Origin: Caenimonas sedimenti
GTDB lineage: Bacteria > Pseudomonadota > Gammaproteobacteria > Burkholderiales > Burkholderiaceae_C
Length of the DNA: 64,000 nt
Direction: 5' to 3'
NCBI RefSeq assembly: GCF_007833165.1
Contig: NZ_VOBQ01000002.1
Span: forward strand, 310,001-374,000
This document shows positions 3,378-61,051 of the stretch, piece by piece. The translations under genes were made by a program, and so were the position numbers. Each line of letters begins with the position of its first letter. Position 1 is the first letter of the stretch. The notes under the pieces were generated by a model. It ran no database searches. It saw only the letters and a program-made list of their open reading frames with translations, and was not told the origin of the DNA.

Positions 3378-6028
3378 TCTTGCGGTTCCGGCTCGTGCGG
3401 AACCTGCTGGCCGGCCTGGCGTGCGCGCTGGCGCTCGCGGGCTGCGGTGGCGGCAGCGGCGACTCTTCCACCAGCGGCATCGCAACCGCCAGCAAGGAAC
3501 TGCTGCGCGGCTTCGCCGACAACGGGTACTACTGGAATCCGGCCGAACCCGGCACCGGCTTCTTCGTGGAAGTGCAGGGCGGCCGCGCCGTCGTGACCTT
3601 CTACCTCTACGACGGTGCCGGCTTGCCCACCTGGCTGTCCGGTGACGCCGACATCGCCTATGTGAGCGGAGCGAACGGCACTTACCGCATCACGGGGACC
3701 CTTCAGCGCTTCACCGGCGGCCAGTCGGCACGGTCGGCCCGGCCTGTCGCGCCGACCAGCACCACCGCCGGCCTCTTCTCGGTCACCTTGCAGGGCGGCA
3801 AGGCCCAGGTGCAACTGGCCAGCCGTAGCTTCCTCGCGGAGCGCTTCTTCGCGCCGGCGGGTGGGTCCGCCACCGCGGGCGCCCCCGAGACCGGCATCTA
3901 CTGGAACCCGGCGGAGAGCGGCCGCGGCTACACGATCGAGGCGGGCGGCGGCCTGGCCACCGTCGGCGTCTTCCACTACCGAGAGGACGGCCAGCCGACC
4001 TGGAACCTCGTGGTGGTGTCGCCCAACACGGGGGCCGTGCCGGCTTCCGGGGCCTTCCAGGCGTACCGGGGCGGGCAGGCGGTCTCCGGCCCATACAAGC
4101 CGGCGGAAGCCGTGCCGACGCAGGAACGGTTCGGCGTGGACTTCGCCGCCAGCCGATGCAGCGGGCGGCTGATCTTTCCGGACATGCCGGCCACCCGGGT
4201 GGAGCGCTTCGGCTTCGTCGCCGGCCTGCGCGCCTCGCCGTGCACGAGCGAATTCCGTCCCGCGCCGCAGGCCGAATCTGATTTCGGTGCCACCCTGGAC
4301 CCACCGCGAACGATCCAGGGCAGCACTTCGGAAACGGGAACCGTCCGCTCGGAATTCAAGGTCCGCCTGAATGGCCTGCCGACGGACGAGGCCGCGAGGG
4401 CGCTGGCGGTGGTGGTGGTCGACCCCGATGGGCTGTACCAGCAACAGTCCATGGGTGTCGTCACGAAAAGCGGGTTCAACCTTACGTTCCAGGCCACGCC
4501 GCTCAAGGCCGGCGCGTACCGCGGACAGTTGCAGTTCCATGTCTGCCGCGACCTGGCCTGCACCCGCCAGGCGGTGGGGTCGCCGCTGGTGGTGCCGTAT
4601 GAGTTTGTGGTGGGCACGGGCTTGCGCGCGTCCGCCGAGGTGGAATTCGCTTTCACGCCGCGCAACGAGACGCTCACGGTGCCCGTCGAGTTCACGCTGC
4701 CCGCCAGGACGAAGCGGTTCCAGCTCTCGTCGCCGAACACGCGCTGGACCGCGCCGGGATGGACGCATTCCGGCGGTGTTTTCCAGGTGCCATCGGTCGG
4801 CGAGCCCCAGAAGCTTACGGTGCTGGTCACGCGCGCGCGGTTCGACGAGATTGGCTCGACGAACCTCTCTTACGCCGCCGCCGCCGAAGCGCAGGGCAGC
4901 GAATTCGGTGGCGAGGTGGTCTACAGCGGCATGGTGCAGTTCGTGCACAAGATGGTGGAGGACCCACTGGTGCTGTCGCCCCTCGATCCGGTGCCAGGCA
5001 TCACCAAGGACGACCTGCAGGCGGCCCGCAATCGCTACCTGCCCGGCACCTTCGACGCGGCGCGCTTCACACGGCGCTTCGAAGTCGATGGCGCCGGCTT
5101 CCAGCAGCCGCGGACCGTGGTCGTGGATGGCGGCCGCGCCTGCATGGCGGACACGAGTGGCGTGCTCGAGTGCTGGAGCGAAACCACCGGCAAGCAGCTG
5201 TGGTCGCTGCAGGTGCGTGACCTGACGGGGGACAGTCTCGACAGCTTCGACCTGCTGGGCAACCGGGTCCATGTCGGGGTGCGCAATGGGCGGTACGAAT
5301 TGGACGCAGCGACCGGGGCTCGGCTGGCAACGCACCCGAGCAGCGGCGGCCCGATCCAGGCGACCGGGACCGGTATCTTCGCCCTGCACGGGCTGAGCAG
5401 CACCGTCGCCCGGGTCGACCCGCAGACGGGCCAGGCGGCTTGGACCACCTACGTGCCTGCTGCAAGGTCGCTCCCGGCCGTGCGTCCGGGGCTGCTGGTT
5501 CTCGAAGCGGACGGTGGCTTGCAGAATCTCGATCCGCAAACCGGTGCGCTGCGACTGCCGACCAAGGGCCCCGACGCCTACGCGACCGGCAATGGCCCGG
5601 TCTTGCCCGATTCGTCGTCGGCGTACGTGGTGGGCTTCAGCGGCCTGGCCAGGTACGACCTCGCCCGCAACCAGCTCGCCTGGAGTGCCGGGGTGACCAC
5701 GCACCGGGGCGTTCCCGTCGTGGCCGACGGCGTCGTCTACGTGACCACGGACAAGGCCGTGGAGGCGCGGTCCACCACGACGGGGGCGCTGATCTGGTCC
5801 TGGCCCTACGTGGTGAACCGGATTTCGCCCAACTGGTCGTCCGTCGACATCGCGGTCGCCGGCCGGTACCTGATCTTGTCTGACAAGACCGGCACCCGGG
5901 CCATCGACGTCATCACGCGCACGGAGGCCTGGTTCGATCCGGAACCGGGCCTGCTCACCCTGTCGCCGAACGGCTTGCTGTACCTGCGGGCCGAATATGG
6001 CCGCGTGTACGTGTTCAATCTGCGATAG
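3365..6028 (+). CDS. predicted lipoprotein: WNP modules plus C-terminal PQQ-like beta-propeller
   Basis: About 887 residues. The start at 3365 has GGAGG four bases upstream; an in-frame ATG at 3374 makes an ATGA overlap with the previous stop and is the alternative. The signal peptide ends in lipobox LAGC followed by GGGS. The same two-module layout as its neighbour follows (YYWNPAEPGTGFFVE, then ETGIYWNPAESGRGYTIE), then the shared CRDLACTRQAVGSP segment. The last 330 residues have repeats of the type TGKQLWSL, ATGARLATH, QTGQAAWTTY, TTGALIWSW, as in PQQ-dependent or BamB-like propellers. It is probably a surface or periplasmic scaffold; the ligand is unknown. Tandem duplication of the gene pair is clear. 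Confidence 0.87.
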   Translation: MGTMILRFRLVRNLLAGLACALALAGCGGGSGDSSTSGIATASKELLRGFADNGYYWNPAEPGTGFFVEVQGGRAVVTFYLYDGAGLPTWLSGDADIAYVSGANGTYRITGTLQRFTGGQSARSARPVAPTSTTAGLFSVTLQGGKAQVQLASRSFLAERFFAPAGGSATAGAPETGIYWNPAESGRGYTIEAGGGLATVGVFHYREDGQPTWNLVVVSPNTGAVPASGAFQAYRGGQAVSGPYKPAEAVPTQERFGVDFAASRCSGRLIFPDMPATRVERFGFVAGLRASPCTSEFRPAPQAESDFGATLDPPRTIQGSTSETGTVRSEFKVRLNGLPTDEAARALAVVVVDPDGLYQQQSMGVVTKSGFNLTFQATPLKAGAYRGQLQFHVCRDLACTRQAVGSPLVVPYEFVVGTGLRASAEVEFAFTPRNETLTVPVEFTLPARTKRFQLSSPNTRWTAPGWTHSGGVFQVPSVGEPQKLTVLVTRARFDEIGSTNLSYAAAAEAQGSEFGGEVVYSGMVQFVHKMVEDPLVLSPLDPVPGITKDDLQAARNRYLPGTFDAARFTRRFEVDGAGFQQPRTVVVDGGRACMADTSGVLECWSETTGKQLWSLQVRDLTGDSLDSFDLLGNRVHVGVRNGRYELDAATGARLATHPSSGGPIQATGTGIFALHGLSSTVARVDPQTGQAAWTTYVPAARSLPAVRPGLLVLEADGGLQNLDPQTGALRLPTKGPDAYATGNGPVLPDSSSAYVVGFSGLARYDLARNQLAWSAGVTTHRGVPVVADGVVYVTTDKAVEARSTTTGALIWSWPYVVNRISPNWSSVDIAVAGRYLILSDKTGTRAIDVITRTEAWFDPEPGLLTLSPNGLLYLRAEYGRVYVFNLR

Positions 6029-6039
6029 CCCTGGCGTTC

Positions 6040-6651
6040 CTAGGCGGCGACCACGATGGCGAAGGTCGCCTGCAGGCCGTCAGCCGCTGCCTTGAATGGC
6101 ACGGTGACCAGCCCACGCCGCTCGCCCAGGTTGCGCCAGAGGAAATCGCGTTCGTTGTGCGGGTCGCCCTCCACATAGAGCTGCGTCGTGAGCAGCTCCT
6201 TGCGCTCCAGCTTCACTTTCACGTGGATGTGCGGCGTGCGCCCCGAATAGGCGACCGGCCGGATGGTGCGGAACCGGTAGCGGCCGTCCGCATCCACGGT
6301 GACACGCCCGAACCCCTGGAAGTTGCGGTCGGCGCGATTGCCGTCGCCCGGGTGGTGATAGTGACCGGCTTCGTCGCATTGCCAGATCTCCACCTGCGCG
6401 CCCGCGACCGGCTTGCCCTGCAGGTCGGTGACGGTGCCGTCCACCCAGGTGGGCTGGCCCTTGGCATAGCGCAGGCTGCCGTTGCGCAGCAGGTCGTTGT
6501 CGCTGTCGGCCGGCAGCTCGACGGGGTAGAACGGGCCTTCCGTTTGCGACGGCGTGGCGCGCCGCGGTGCCGTGGGTTGCGCCCGGACGGCTGTCCAGAT
6601 GGCGGGCAGGGCGATCAGGGCGGCGGCACGGCGGCGGGACAGGTCGGGCAT
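6040..6651 (-). CDS. intradiol ring-cleavage dioxygenase-like protein, exported
   Basis: A 203-residue protein of the protocatechuate 3,4-dioxygenase beta/catechol dioxygenase fold. The N-terminus has a twin-arginine-like segment (SRRRAAALIALPAIW), so it is probably exported by Tat. Candidate Fe(III) ligands of the family are visible: Tyr in GHYHHPG, Tyr in RPVAYSGR, and the two His of TPHIHVKV. It lacks the N-terminal dimerisation domain of cytoplasmic catechol dioxygenases. Its stop faces the stop of the propeller lipoprotein 11 bp away. No other aromatic-pathway genes adjoin it, so the substrate is open. Confidence 0.87.
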   Translation of the reverse strand: MPDLSRRRAAALIALPAIWTAVRAQPTAPRRATPSQTEGPFYPVELPADSDNDLLRNGSLRYAKGQPTWVDGTVTDLQGKPVAGAQVEIWQCDEAGHYHHPGDGNRADRNFQGFGRVTVDADGRYRFRTIRPVAYSGRTPHIHVKVKLERKELLTTQLYVEGDPHNERDFLWRNLGERRGLVTVPFKAAADGLQATFAIVVAA

Positions 6652-6713
6652 GGGGAAGTTCTCCGTGGCTGATCGGTGAGAGCGGCCGAGCCGGGCGGAG
6701 TTCCACGCCGCGG

Positions 6714-7346
6714 TCAGAATGGTGCCGGGCTGTCGAAGACCAGCGGCTCGTCACTGGCCGGATGCTGGAGCGCCAGCCGTGTGGCGTGCAGCAGCAGGCG
6801 CGGGGCGAGGTCCAGCACCTCGGGTGGTGCGTAGAGTGCGTCGCCCAGGATGGCGTGGCCAATCGCCTGCAGGTGCACCCGCAATTGATGCGTGCGCCCG
6901 GTGACGGGCTCCAGTTCCACCTGTGTGGCCGAAGGGGTGCGCGACAGCACTCGCCAATGGGTGACACTCGGCTTGCCCGCGTCGTGGTCGACCTTCTGCG
7001 CCGGCCTGTTCGGCCAGTCGGCCCCGATCGGCAGGGTGATCGTGCCGGACGCCGCCGCCAAATCGCCGGCCACCACGGCCACATAGCGCTTGTCCACCCG
7101 CCGCTGCTCGAAAGCGCGGCCCAGCCGCCTTTGCATTGCAATGCCCCGGGCCATCAGGAACAGGCCGGACGTTGCCATGTCGAGCCGGTGCACGACCAGC
7201 GCGTCCGGCCACAGCTCGCGCGCCCGCGCGGACAGGCAATCCTGCTTGTCTTCGCCCCGGCCCGGCACCGCGAGCAGGCCGGCGGGCTTGTCGAACACGA
7301 CCAGGTGCTCGTCCACATACACCAGCCCTTCGGATAATCGCCCCAT
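6714..7346 (-). CDS. rluA: RluA-family pseudouridine synthase
   Basis: A 210-residue protein closely resembling E. coli RluA (219 residues), which makes pseudouridine 746 in 23S rRNA and 32 in some tRNAs. The catalytic aspartate sits in HRLDMATSGLFLMA. Other family hallmarks are DKPAGLLAVPGR, DWPNRPAQKV, GRTHQLRVHLQAIGH and ILGDALYA. There is no S4 domain, as expected for RluA. The start ATG (7346-7344) overlaps the start of the divergent DUF486 gene in a CATG tetranucleotide, so the two genes share their 5' ends and must have promoters inside each other. Confidence 0.93.
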   Translation of the reverse strand: MGRLSEGLVYVDEHLVVFDKPAGLLAVPGRGEDKQDCLSARARELWPDALVVHRLDMATSGLFLMARGIAMQRRLGRAFEQRRVDKRYVAVVAGDLAAASGTITLPIGADWPNRPAQKVDHDAGKPSVTHWRVLSRTPSATQVELEPVTGRTHQLRVHLQAIGHAILGDALYAPPEVLDLAPRLLLHATRLALQHPASDEPLVFDSPAPF

Positions 7347-8432: not shown

Positions 8433-9443
8433 ATGGAAGTCTCGCAGACGGCCCTCTGGGTCGTGATCATGCTGGTGGCCGTGGCGCTGCTGTTCGACTT
8501 CATGAACGGCTTCCACGACGCCGCCAACTCGATCGCCACCGTGGTTTCCACCGGGGTCCTGAAGCCGGCGCAAGCGGTGCTCTTCGCGGCGTTCTTCAAC
8601 TTCATCGCCATCTTCATCTTCCACCTGAGCGTCGCGGCCACGGTGGGCAAGGGCATCGTGGAGCCCGGCGTGGTCAACACGCACGTGGTGTTCGGCGCGC
8701 TGGTCGGCGCCATCACCTGGAACGCCATCACCTGGTGGTACGGCATCCCCAGCAGCTCGTCCCACGCGCTGATCGGCGGGATCGTCGGCGCCGTCATCGC
8801 CAAGGCGGGTGCGGGCTCGCTGGTGGCGTCCGGCGTCTGGAAGACGGTGGTCTTCATCTTCATCTCGCCCACGCTCGGCTTCATCCTCGGCTCGCTGATG
8901 ATGGTGCTGGTGTCCAACGTGTTCCGCCGCAGCCAGCCATCGAAGATCGACAAATGGTTCCGCCGGATGCAGCTGGTCTCCGCGGGGGCGTACAGCCTGG
9001 GCCACGGCGGCAATGACGCCCAGAAGACCATCGGCATCATCTGGATGCTGCTCATCGCCACCGGCTACGTCGCCGCCGGCGAGCAGGCGCCGCCCACGTG
9101 GGTGATCGTCAGCTGCTACGTCGCCATCGCCATCGGCACCATGTTCGGCGGCTGGCGCATCGTCAAGACCATGGGCCAGAAGATCACCAAGCTGAAGCCC
9201 GTGGGCGGGTTCTGCGCGGAGACCGGCGGGGCGATGACGCTGTTCATCGCGACGGCCCTGGGCATCCCGGTGTCGACCACGCACACCATCACCGGCGCGA
9301 TCGTCGGGGTCGGTTCGACGCAGCGCGCGAGTGCGGTGCGTTGGGGTGTGGCCGGCAACATCGTGTGGGCCTGGATCTTCACGATTCCGGCGAGCGCATT
9401 TGTTGCTGCGATCGCTTATTGGGTCAGTTTGCAGCTGTTCTGA
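8433..9443 (+). CDS. pit: low-affinity inorganic phosphate transporter, Pit family
   Basis: 336 residues with about ten membrane helices. The two internally duplicated PiT signatures are seen: DFMNGFHDAANSIATVV near residue 25 and SLGHGGNDAQKTIG near 190. Further family motifs are WWYGIPSSSSHALIGG and GIPVSTTHTITGAIVGVG. PiT carriers import metal-phosphate with protons. The ATG at 8433 is chosen because it opens the first helix; an upstream start would read back into the DUF47 gene. Followed by a 740-bp non-coding island. Confidence 0.95.
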   Translation: MEVSQTALWVVIMLVAVALLFDFMNGFHDAANSIATVVSTGVLKPAQAVLFAAFFNFIAIFIFHLSVAATVGKGIVEPGVVNTHVVFGALVGAITWNAITWWYGIPSSSSHALIGGIVGAVIAKAGAGSLVASGVWKTVVFIFISPTLGFILGSLMMVLVSNVFRRSQPSKIDKWFRRMQLVSAGAYSLGHGGNDAQKTIGIIWMLLIATGYVAAGEQAPPTWVIVSCYVAIAIGTMFGGWRIVKTMGQKITKLKPVGGFCAETGGAMTLFIATALGIPVSTTHTITGAIVGVGSTQRASAVRWGVAGNIVWAWIFTIPASAFVAAIAYWVSLQLF

Positions 9444-9454
9444 GAAAGCCTGTC

Positions 9455-9475
9455 ATTGCGGACTTGATCCGCAAT
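9455..9475. repeat. REP-like palindrome
   Basis: ATTGCGGA-CTTGA-TCCGCAAT is a perfect 8-bp inverted repeat with a 5-bp spacer. It sits 12 bp after the pit stop and could act as its transcript end, though no T-run follows. A half copy is at 10163-10179 and a full relative at 61019-61039, so this is a dispersed repeat. Confidence 0.75.
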
Positions 9476-9500
9476 CCATGGTTACTGGTCTCCGCGCGTG

Positions 9501-9787
9501 GGCAAAGCCGCACGCGGGCGGGCTGTGGCGCGCTGGCACGGCGTTCGTCGGGCCGCGCGCGGCCCTACCGAATCCCCTGCGCCGTCCGGTCATGCGGCCC
9601 CGCGGGCGAACTCGTTGCGCGCCCTACGGGCGCTGCGCTCAGACAGCGCCCGCGAGCATGAAACGGTCGCACGGCTTGATACGCAGCCCTGCGGGCCGCT
9701 CTCGTAGCCGCGCTGGGCCGCAAGACCGGCCGTCGCAGGCGCCTGGGCCCTTATGCGCGCCACAGCCCGCCCGCGTGCGGCTTTGCC
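9501..9787 (-). repeat. structured inverted-repeat unit, copy A (candidate structured RNA or MITE-like element)
   Basis: A 287-bp unit with perfect 33-bp terminal inverted repeats (9501-9533 and 9755-9787). Inside, 9576-9600 pairs with 9715-9739 (22 of 25 positions). Within that stem, 9669-9676 pairs with 9706-9713 (8 bp, one G-U), and 9683-9689 pairs with 9693-9699. A perfect 16-bp palindrome of the GGGCCGCG type is near 9551-9566. Read on the minus strand, the unit aligns end to end with copy B, and their differences often preserve pairing. No gene or transposase is inside. It fits no repeat family I can name. Confidence 0.8.
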
Positions 9788-9833
9788 GCCACCACCCTGA
9801 GCGCGCCACCAGTGGAATACCCCCAACGCATCT

Positions 9834-10116
9834 GCAACGCCGCGCGTGGCCGGGCTGTGGCGCGCATAGGGGCCCAGGCGCCTGCGGCGCACGCCCTCGC
9901 GGCCCAGCGTGTCTACGAGAGCGGCGAAAGCCGCGTATCGAGACACGCGACCGTTTCATGCTCGCCGCCGCTGTTTGAGCGCAGCGCCCACAGGGCGCGG
10001 AGCGAGTTCGGCGGCGGGGCCGCGAGGGCGTGCGGCGCAGGGCATCCGGTAGGGCTGCGCAGCGGCCCGACGGACGCCGTGCCAGCGCGCCACAGCCCGG
10101 CCACGTGCGGCGTTGC
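9834..10116 (+). repeat. structured inverted-repeat unit, copy B (candidate structured RNA or MITE-like element)
   Basis: A 283-bp unit in opposite orientation to copy A, 46 bp away. The terminal inverted repeats (9834-9865 and 10085-10116) match at 31 of 32 positions. An inner long-range stem joins 9881-9905 with 10017-10041 (24 of 25 pairs). Nested inside are a perfect stem 9907-9914/9941-9948 and a hairpin 9921-9934 with five G-C pairs capped by a GAAA (GNRA) tetraloop. A hairpin at 9967-9988 follows the conserved single-stranded segment CGACCGTTTCATGCTCG (about 9948-9964). Together these form a multibranched fold. Function unknown. Confidence 0.8.
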
Positions 10117-10180
10117 CGCGAGGATGAAGAACGCAGGAACGCAGGAAGGAAACTGCCGCCGTGGATTGCGGGTCAAGCCG

Positions 10181-10702
10181 CTAGGACGGCAAAACCGGCG
10201 GCCGCGGATGCAGCCGCGCCATCGACAGGCTGTCCACGTACTGCCCATTCTTCAACGCGTAACCGCGGTGGCGCCCCTCTTCGACGAAGCCCAGCGAGCG
10301 ATACAGCGCAATCGCGCGCTCGTTGTCCGCGTGCACGCTCAGCTCGATGCGCAACACACCCGCCCATTGGTCTGCCCAGACCAGCAGGCGCTCCAGCAGC
10401 TGGCGGCCGGCGCCGCGCCCTTGCCATTCGGGGGCGAGCGCGATGGCCAGCAGCCGCACATGACTGCGCCGCAAACTCGCCTGCACCGGGTGCAGCGCGG
10501 CCATGCCGACGACTGCGCCGTCGGCAACGGCCACGAGCCGGCAACCGGTGGGCTCCGGGCGCTGCAGGAATTCGATGCGCGAGGCGATGGGCACATCGGG
10601 CAATTGCAGGGTGCCTTCCACCACGCCGACGGTTCCCAGCAGGGCGGAAATGCCGGCCGCGTCCGACGGCTCGGCGCTGCGAATCTCCAATCCGTCGCTC
10701 AT
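10181..10702 (-). CDS. GNAT family N-acetyltransferase
   Basis: 173 residues with the GNAT acetyl-CoA-binding signature in LAIALAPEWQGRGAGRQLLE (motif A, QGRGAG) and the motif-B segment NERAIALYRSLGFVEEGRHRG near the C-terminus. The substrate cannot be inferred. The ATG (10702-10700) overlaps the TGA of the upstream TM2 gene in an ATGA, so the two are translationally coupled. It is the last gene of a three-gene minus-strand operon. Confidence 0.88.
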   Translation of the reverse strand: MSDGLEIRSAEPSDAAGISALLGTVGVVEGTLQLPDVPIASRIEFLQRPEPTGCRLVAVADGAVVGMAALHPVQASLRRSHVRLLAIALAPEWQGRGAGRQLLERLLVWADQWAGVLRIELSVHADNERAIALYRSLGFVEEGRHRGYALKNGQYVDSLSMARLHPRPPVLPS

Positions 10703-60996: not shown

Positions 60997-61018
60997 GGAT
61001 GGTGGCGCAGGGAGATGG

Positions 61019-61039
61019 ATTGCGGGTGGAGCCCGCAAT
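61019..61039. repeat. REP-like palindrome
   Basis: ATTGCGGG-TGGAG-CCCGCAAT, 8-bp arms with a 5-bp spacer, between pnuC and ftsB. It is the same family as 9455-9475 (ATTGCGGA..TCCGCAAT). Confidence 0.75.
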
Positions 61040-61051
61040 GACAGCCTTTGC

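Follow-up and report, generated by a model that had tools for sequence, protein, structure and literature searches.

A widespread, apparently undescribed family of repeats in Burkholderiaceae with a conserved single-strand fold, usually found as inverted pairs

The window analysed here (the whole stretch of DNA, 64,000 nucleotides long) carries two convergent genes, for a phosphate transporter (pit) and a GNAT acetyltransferase, and the gap between them holds two units, A and B, which are inverted relative to each other (Table 1). Both units are bounded by near-perfect terminal inverted repeats, as reported in a preliminary description of this DNA, the coordinates of which are right; the repeats are 33 nt long and 100% identical in A and 32 nt long and 97% identical in B. 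The inner ends of A and B are separated by a spacer, which measures 44-50 or 93-139 nt in the other listed pairs of this kind, and on the right the whole element seems to extend about 20 nt beyond B; the left counterpart of this outer end (about 9482-9500) is degenerate. A REP-like dimer with a TGTC tag brackets the element, one half on either side. When six translated stretches from both strands of the element, a subset of all frames, were compared with Pfam, no family matched, and a protein-coding explanation was dropped on this basis. A simple scan of positions 9440-10190 detected no sigma-70-like promoter and no intrinsic-terminator-like site.

Table 1. Coordinates of the element, its parts and its neighbours in the window.
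Feature	Positions	Strand	Remarks
Left flanking gene, phosphate transporter (pit), PF01384	8370-9443	+	reads towards element
Left half of TGTC-tagged REP-like palindrome dimer bracketing the element	9451-9480	+	27 copies in genome at up to 3 mismatches
Unit A, alpha type, ~285-nt foldable	9501-9787	-	motif on minus strand
P1 terminal stem of A, outer arm	9501-9533	-	partner 9755-9787; covariation helix 1
P2 long stem of A, 3' arm	9576-9600	-	partner 9715-9739; alignment columns 208-232 of 26 units
Core of A (model R1)	9599-9669	-	R1 match at contig positions 319599-319669, E 9.7e-14
P2 long stem of A, 5' arm	9715-9739	-	alignment columns 50-74 of 26 units
P1 terminal stem of A, inner arm	9755-9787	-	inverted-repeat detection
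Spacer between inner ends of A and B	9788-9833		
Unit B, beta type, ~283-nt foldable	9834-10116	+	motif on plus strand
P1 terminal stem of B, inner arm	9834-9865	+	partner 10085-10116
P2 long stem of B, 5' arm	9881-9905	+	partner 10017-10041
P3 hairpin of B	9907-9948	+	8-bp stem 9907-9914/9941-9948, GAAA-capped inner hairpin; covariation helix 5
Core of B (model R1)	9948-10018	+	R1 match at contig positions 319948-320018, E 9e-15; joint TTCATGCTCG; P4 stem 9963-9970/10009-10016; internal loop TGTTTGAGC/GCGAGTT; apical hairpin 9984-9998
P2 long stem of B, 3' arm	10017-10041	+	inverted repeat and covariation
P1 terminal stem of B, outer arm	10085-10116	+	inverted-repeat detection
Right outer end (cgcgaggatgaagaacgcagg)	10117-10138		by eye; resembles outward sequence of many other copies
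Right half of TGTC-tagged REP-like dimer	10158-10180	-	partly degenerate
Right flanking gene, GNAT acetyltransferase, PF00583	10181-10885	-	reads towards element

A unit of this type measures about 250-290 nt in the aligned Ramlibacter copies. Its motif strand would fold into a closed structure with several branches, composed of the terminal stem P1, the long stem P2, the P3 hairpin, a nearly fixed single-stranded joint, P4 with its conserved internal loop and the side hairpin P5. The computed folding energies were -232.1 kcal/mol for B (z -12.7) and -218.5 kcal/mol for A (z -11.4), each against 200 shuffles. P2 is paired at 22 of 25 positions in A and at 24 of 25 in B, the counts given in the preliminary description, which had also claimed compensatory changes at four or more positions of P2 and at two of the 8-bp stem of P3. 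Comparison of A with B recovered these double-sided changes with pairing kept and added three pairs in P1 and two in P4, the arms of which read CGCGGGCG/CGCCCGCG in A and CGCCGCCG/CGGCGGCG in B. The joint CGACCGTTTCATGCTCG is, as had been described, the same in both units, and B has a GAAA-capped inner hairpin.

The fold was then evaluated on three alignments. Alignments A1 and A2, like the P4 and mismatch tests below, consist of units collected by a motif pattern, which makes joint conservation in them partly a matter of construction; alignment A3 consists of 26 full units (247-294 nt, several helices) gathered by whole-unit similarity, and in these the joints are nearly fixed. Both sides have changed at 60 of 104 pairs in the 26 units, the observed covariation score was reached by none of 500 shuffles, and 87.0% of cells pair compared to 77.4% when shuffled and 30-44% with the partner slid, the 104-pair structure having been taken from unit B's own fold, which favours that fold over slid versions. 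P1 pairs in 97.6% and P2 in 97.0% of cells, and across the 26 units 19 of the 32 P1 pairs and 16 of the 24 P2 pairs of B were altered on both sides. Five smaller helices do less well: helices 8 and 9 of this structure, which form P4, are misaligned in A3 (44% and 38% paired), and P4 was judged on A1 and A2; poorly supported are helices 2 (25% paired), 7 (no both-side change) and 13 (58%). A1 leaves out 17 units that fail a P2-pairing filter, so that only P2 results from outside A1 count, and A2 was made without that filter. In the 71-nt core, 14 of 15 pairs were altered on both sides among the 51 sequences of A2, and the pair beside the internal loop TGTYTGA/GAGTT was G-C in 31, A-U in 17, C-G in one and unpaired in two of them. 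When P4 arms were located through their flanking motifs, the 30 distinct arm pairs were 96% paired, compared to 70% with arms swapped between sequences. Covariation scores over A1, A2 and the 26 units ranged from 0.312 to 0.548, a level that none of 500 shuffles reached, and those of slid versions from 0.036 to 0.149. Of the five measures of covariation used, one, which counts pair types, did not exceed the shuffles on the core alignments (A1 182/500, A2 70/500). Rfam release 15 gave no match at gathering score in the window or in 18 related loci, the best sub-threshold match scoring 22.9 bits against a cut-off of 44.

The preliminary description had proposed a covariance-model search of related genomes. 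A model of the core (R1; 71 positions, 15 pairs) was built from element copies. At E<=0.001, R1 matched 46 of 60 Ramlibacter genomes; at E<=1e-5 it matched 57 of 160 Burkholderiaceae genomes, representing 50 of 141 genera; and in a class-wide sample at E<=1e-6 it matched 2 of 274 genomes, both within Burkholderiaceae, a family name that we took from the names of the organisms carrying copies. All three surveys ran with stricter filters, at the cost of weak matches. Copy number is variable: some genomes have no match, the richest has 117 (E<=0.001), and the window's own genome (5.9 Mb) has 39 blastn matches, eight of which are full-length units; 27 of 61 genomes, own included, were matched. A pattern scan returned 89 stretches, foremost from Ramlibacter and also from Hydrogenophaga, Piscinibacter and other, mostly betaproteobacterial, bins. 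Two of its matches, L166 and L191, lie in Stagnimonas bins; the metagenome series of these bins is named like the one that genome G036 comes from, and they may reflect misbinning. One match in a Clostridia bin (L155) looks like chance. Since 24 units besides A and B fit the structure and core matches occur in 50 of 141 genera, the resemblance of A to B is not a chance one. With homologues in many genera, and with pairing retained where these have diverged, two of the findings that the preliminary description had named as counting against it, an absence of homologues or changes that leave positions unpaired, were not made, and its claim of selection on single-strand structure is supported. The spread over the whole bacterial family goes beyond that description.

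A second result that goes beyond it is that the alpha/beta pair is itself the usual form of the element: two diverged units, one alpha and one beta, in -,+ order with their 5' ends facing. Neighbouring core matches less than 700 bp apart were in -,+ order in 38/38 and 22/22 cases (together 60/60), and in genome G101 this held for 31/31 neighbouring units. Among the matches listed for eight genomes, whose loci partly overlap the other sets, 41 of 42 pairs were -,+, the lone exception being one -,- pair in genome G210. The inner arms are readable in 22 of the 23 listed pairs, and by eye each of these 22 consists of one alpha and one beta unit. Many outer ends carry sequence like GCCGCGAGGTC..CGAACGCAAA on both sides, so that the ends of the complete pair are inverted too. 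Solo units also exist, given that 43 of 163 core matches had no partner within the stretch read. Variants were observed as well: one copy (L005), in which an alpha body carries a beta arm, looks like the product of a deletion, and on a contig of the window's own genome (G000:C14; L256 2500-4620) two shortened units in -,+ order lie 1.8 kb apart and enclose two genes, one of the HEPN_RiboL-PSP family and one ORF that matches no Pfam family. Tandem cores in G015 proved to be scaffold artefacts, as both joins read, at two of the three tandem places, carry N. Unpaired units lean to one orientation relative to the replication fork (9/9 in G098; 34:20 in G101, p 0.076); over seven genomes at least 56 lay against and at least 30 with the fork (binomial p 0.007), a weak and possibly confounded hint.

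The preliminary description had named template switching or gene conversion within imperfect palindromes as an alternative source of matching arms. We counted isolated mismatches in the long stems, using an aligner that scores G.T and A.C alike. On the motif strand of 55 representatives we found 83 G.T and 23 A.C mismatches, and in distinct contexts 51 and 19 (p 1.7e-4). Split by type, the G.T:A.C ratio in distinct contexts was 18:2 in alpha units (p 4e-4) and 21:7 in older beta units (p 0.012); recent beta units, at 13:7, did not reach significance by themselves (p 0.26), and unassigned units gave 17:8 and 17:5. The two DNA strands gave 35:14 and 44:15. This excess weakens template switching or gene conversion as the sole cause of the matched arms, although deamination of C on an exposed strand could account for part of it. 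As the motif strands of paired units lie on opposite DNA strands, the two units would have to become single-stranded separately, as would be the case for RNA or if both DNA strands occurred as ssDNA.

The elements are dispersed at unrelated intergenic sites, and near-identical pairs with different flanks were found at L067 and L029. Of 53 elements, 29 lay between convergent genes and 4 between divergent ones; among 271 control gaps the numbers were 37 (p 7e-10 for the convergent class) and 54. Duplicates, and elements close to the end of a locus, are not part of this count, which uses genes from a purpose-made finder (G+C by codon position), some neighbours being more than 1 kb away. The preliminary description had suggested a search for empty sites in sister strains. 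A convergent GNAT gene was present at 13 of 29 sister-species pit loci, and at 12 of these 13 the gap measures 1-153 bp, too short for the element, compared to 743 in the window's genome; in 18 sister loci, including those 12, no R1 unit was found at E<=0.01. The element is absent from most sister-species versions of its site. In a second Ramlibacter species (G028; L102), however, the pit-GNAT gap is 467 bp long and holds a unit (1240-1320, E 6e-7), and a site occupied in two species implies either common descent or repeated insertion. No target-site duplication was identified in the flanks of 37 elements, no exact empty site was found among the sister loci, and, of plasmid relatives as a source of empty sites, one Variovorax replicon matched only itself. 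Matches on plasmids were rare (2 of 72,556 records in one search, one in another and none in three others), and nothing was found in phages with one query or in viral contigs with one pattern; cell-to-cell transfer was accordingly not seen.

The REP-like half that brackets the element occurs in 27 copies in the genome at no more than 3 mismatches; the window has another at 61014-61043 (3 mismatches), away from the element. A related inverted half lies, by eye, within about 45 nt in 21 of 26 listed copies. This TGTC-tagged repeat resembles the CGTC/dRS3 type in an excerpt of PMC3733652, according to which nesting inside palindromes is known for some REP dimers. Of 74 element ends, 10 had a REP-like motif no more than 100 bp away, compared to 59 of 6,343 background windows (genes included). 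The likeness to REPs and REPINs extends to the element itself: the same excerpt (PMC3733652) describes dispersed palindromic units, close pairs in opposite orientation in many REP families with heterodimers in several, and sites that are mostly between unidirectional and convergent genes and sometimes inside other palindromes. In dispersal, 3'-end position and inverted dimer order the element would thus appear to work like a REPIN. However, REPs are 20-40 bp long (PMC3733652), whereas the units here are multi-branched, 247-294 nt long and have conserved internal joints. Inspection by eye of the outer ends of 37 elements revealed no constant tag at the base of P1, with CTAC/GTAG present in some (for example L147, L171 and L193). 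A Y1 (HUH) transposase is present, as one copy each, in 22 of 28 element-rich genomes (L288-L309), yet none of these 22 loci, which reach up to about 1.5 kb per side, holds a unit (best E 0.27), which leaves Y1/RAYT unsupported as a linked transposase. On account of the size of its units and of this lack of RAYT linkage, we do not file the element as a REPIN.

Other known repeats share fewer features with it. TIRYT/TIRtron repeats are likewise linked to Y1 transposases, which are flanked by their own terminal repeats, and also occur as dimers (PMC3733652, excerpt), but the terminal repeat of the Y1 genes found here, AATTGGGGTCAGATTCCAATT, is another sequence than the element's, and it flanks the gene in three of the four loci examined (L300, L294 and L289; not L305). 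As a separate observation, one copy of the AATTGGGGTCAGATTCCAATT end forms the P5 hairpin of a G036 unit (L059 332-616). MITEs and the Correia/NEMIS repeats are short and non-coding, have terminal inverted repeats and are dispersed between genes. The element has such repeats and dispersed copies; it differs in its conserved multi-branched fold with covariation. Neither a parent transposon nor any gene-bearing version was noticed among the loci read. Locus L170 and the two shortened units on G000:C14 were considered as autonomous forms and rejected, the transposase of L170 being that of an IS110-family insertion sequence (about 5260-6800) inserted within an alpha unit of Ramlibacter WS9. With large Rfam RNA families the element has in common strong covariation, conserved joints and capped hairpins, but it matches none of them, is multi-copy and comes in inverted pairs.

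Overall, we favour the reading, to which we give a probability of a little under 60%, that these are non-autonomous, chromosomal mobile repeats of Burkholderiaceae, REPIN-like but giant, that are recognised as a folded single strand. A trans-acting enzyme would recognise this strand and its joints, either as RNA or as ssDNA, and would copy or insert the element, preferably at the 3' ends of genes and in palindromic repeats, by analogy with the mechanism suggested for REPINs. Tentatively, the family might even constitute a new class, namely a self-spreading element recognised through a large, maintained single-strand fold, in which two diverged structures of ~280 nt are strictly inverted and have their motif strands selected on opposite DNA strands, each as an RNA or ssDNA molecule of its own. 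The preliminary description had offered two guesses, an RNA family spread as a repeat or a mobile element mobilised through a folded strand; our results are compatible with either. As a rival reading, the element could serve its host as a structured non-coding RNA or as part of 3'-UTRs, perhaps by stabilising or regulating transcript ends, its spread being incidental. This would suit the covariation, the G.T excess over A.C on the motif strand, the GAAA-capped hairpin of B, and the preference for gene 3' ends with few copies in divergent gaps; for REPs as well, a partial role as RNA at sites downstream of genes has been suggested (PMC3733652, excerpt). The unit in the matching gap of G028 makes this rival slightly stronger and the mobile-repeat reading slightly weaker. 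An essential function, however, sits poorly with the 14 of 60 Ramlibacter genomes that lack a match at E<=0.001 and with a range of 0 to 117 matches per genome; the promoter and terminator scan was empty, Rfam gave no match, and any transcript through the pair meets one unit in sense and the other in antisense. On balance, we regard a host RNA as rather unlikely.

Long, near-perfect inverted repeats are known substrates for arm-to-arm correction, and the nearly perfect P1 arms would be in keeping with a quasi-palindrome maintained by template switching or gene conversion, which copy one arm onto the other, with no selection on structure. This explanation predicts about equal numbers of G.T and A.C where we counted 83:23, and an asymmetry between the two is not predicted by simple cruciform or arm-copying models; neither the nearly fixed joints of the 26 units nor the compensated pair by the internal loop is readily explained by it, and we consider it very improbable. 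The element might instead be a longer form of a published repeat. BRE, an excerpt of PMC3110155 states, is 75-91 bp long with a GC of 69%, is usually intergenic and is found in Bordetella and Comamonadaceae genomes, in tandem with up to 8 copies. Its size is near that of the 71-nt core, and like the element it is a mostly intergenic repeat, of high GC, in Betaproteobacteria including Comamonadaceae; by its published description it differs in being ~90 bp long and often tandem, the tandem cores examined in G015 having been artefacts. Burkholderiales-1, listed in an excerpt of PMC2864571 as an uncertain motif without accession, is a second candidate. We judge either identity to be improbable. 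Judged from titles and starts of abstracts, no paper clearly describes the element, BRE aside as a candidate, and the family is apparently undescribed.

With core matches in 50 of 141 sampled genera of one large family and 117 matches in one genome, the element is a common genome component with strong covariation and no Rfam match. Selection on the single-strand structure of a dispersed repeat can be tested here on a well-defined example, which also offers a starting point for finding the enzyme that moves or uses such repeats. Several draft contigs end inside or beside units (G000:C2, C22, C23 and C37; G036:C20, C46, C62 and C64), so that the element probably disturbs short-read assemblies and copy numbers in these may be underestimates. 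Divergent relatives were observed at L260 in G098 and at L311 on a Variovorax paradoxus replicon, both bracketed by inverted arms with AAAGAAAGT-like tracts, and these possibly represent another sub-family.
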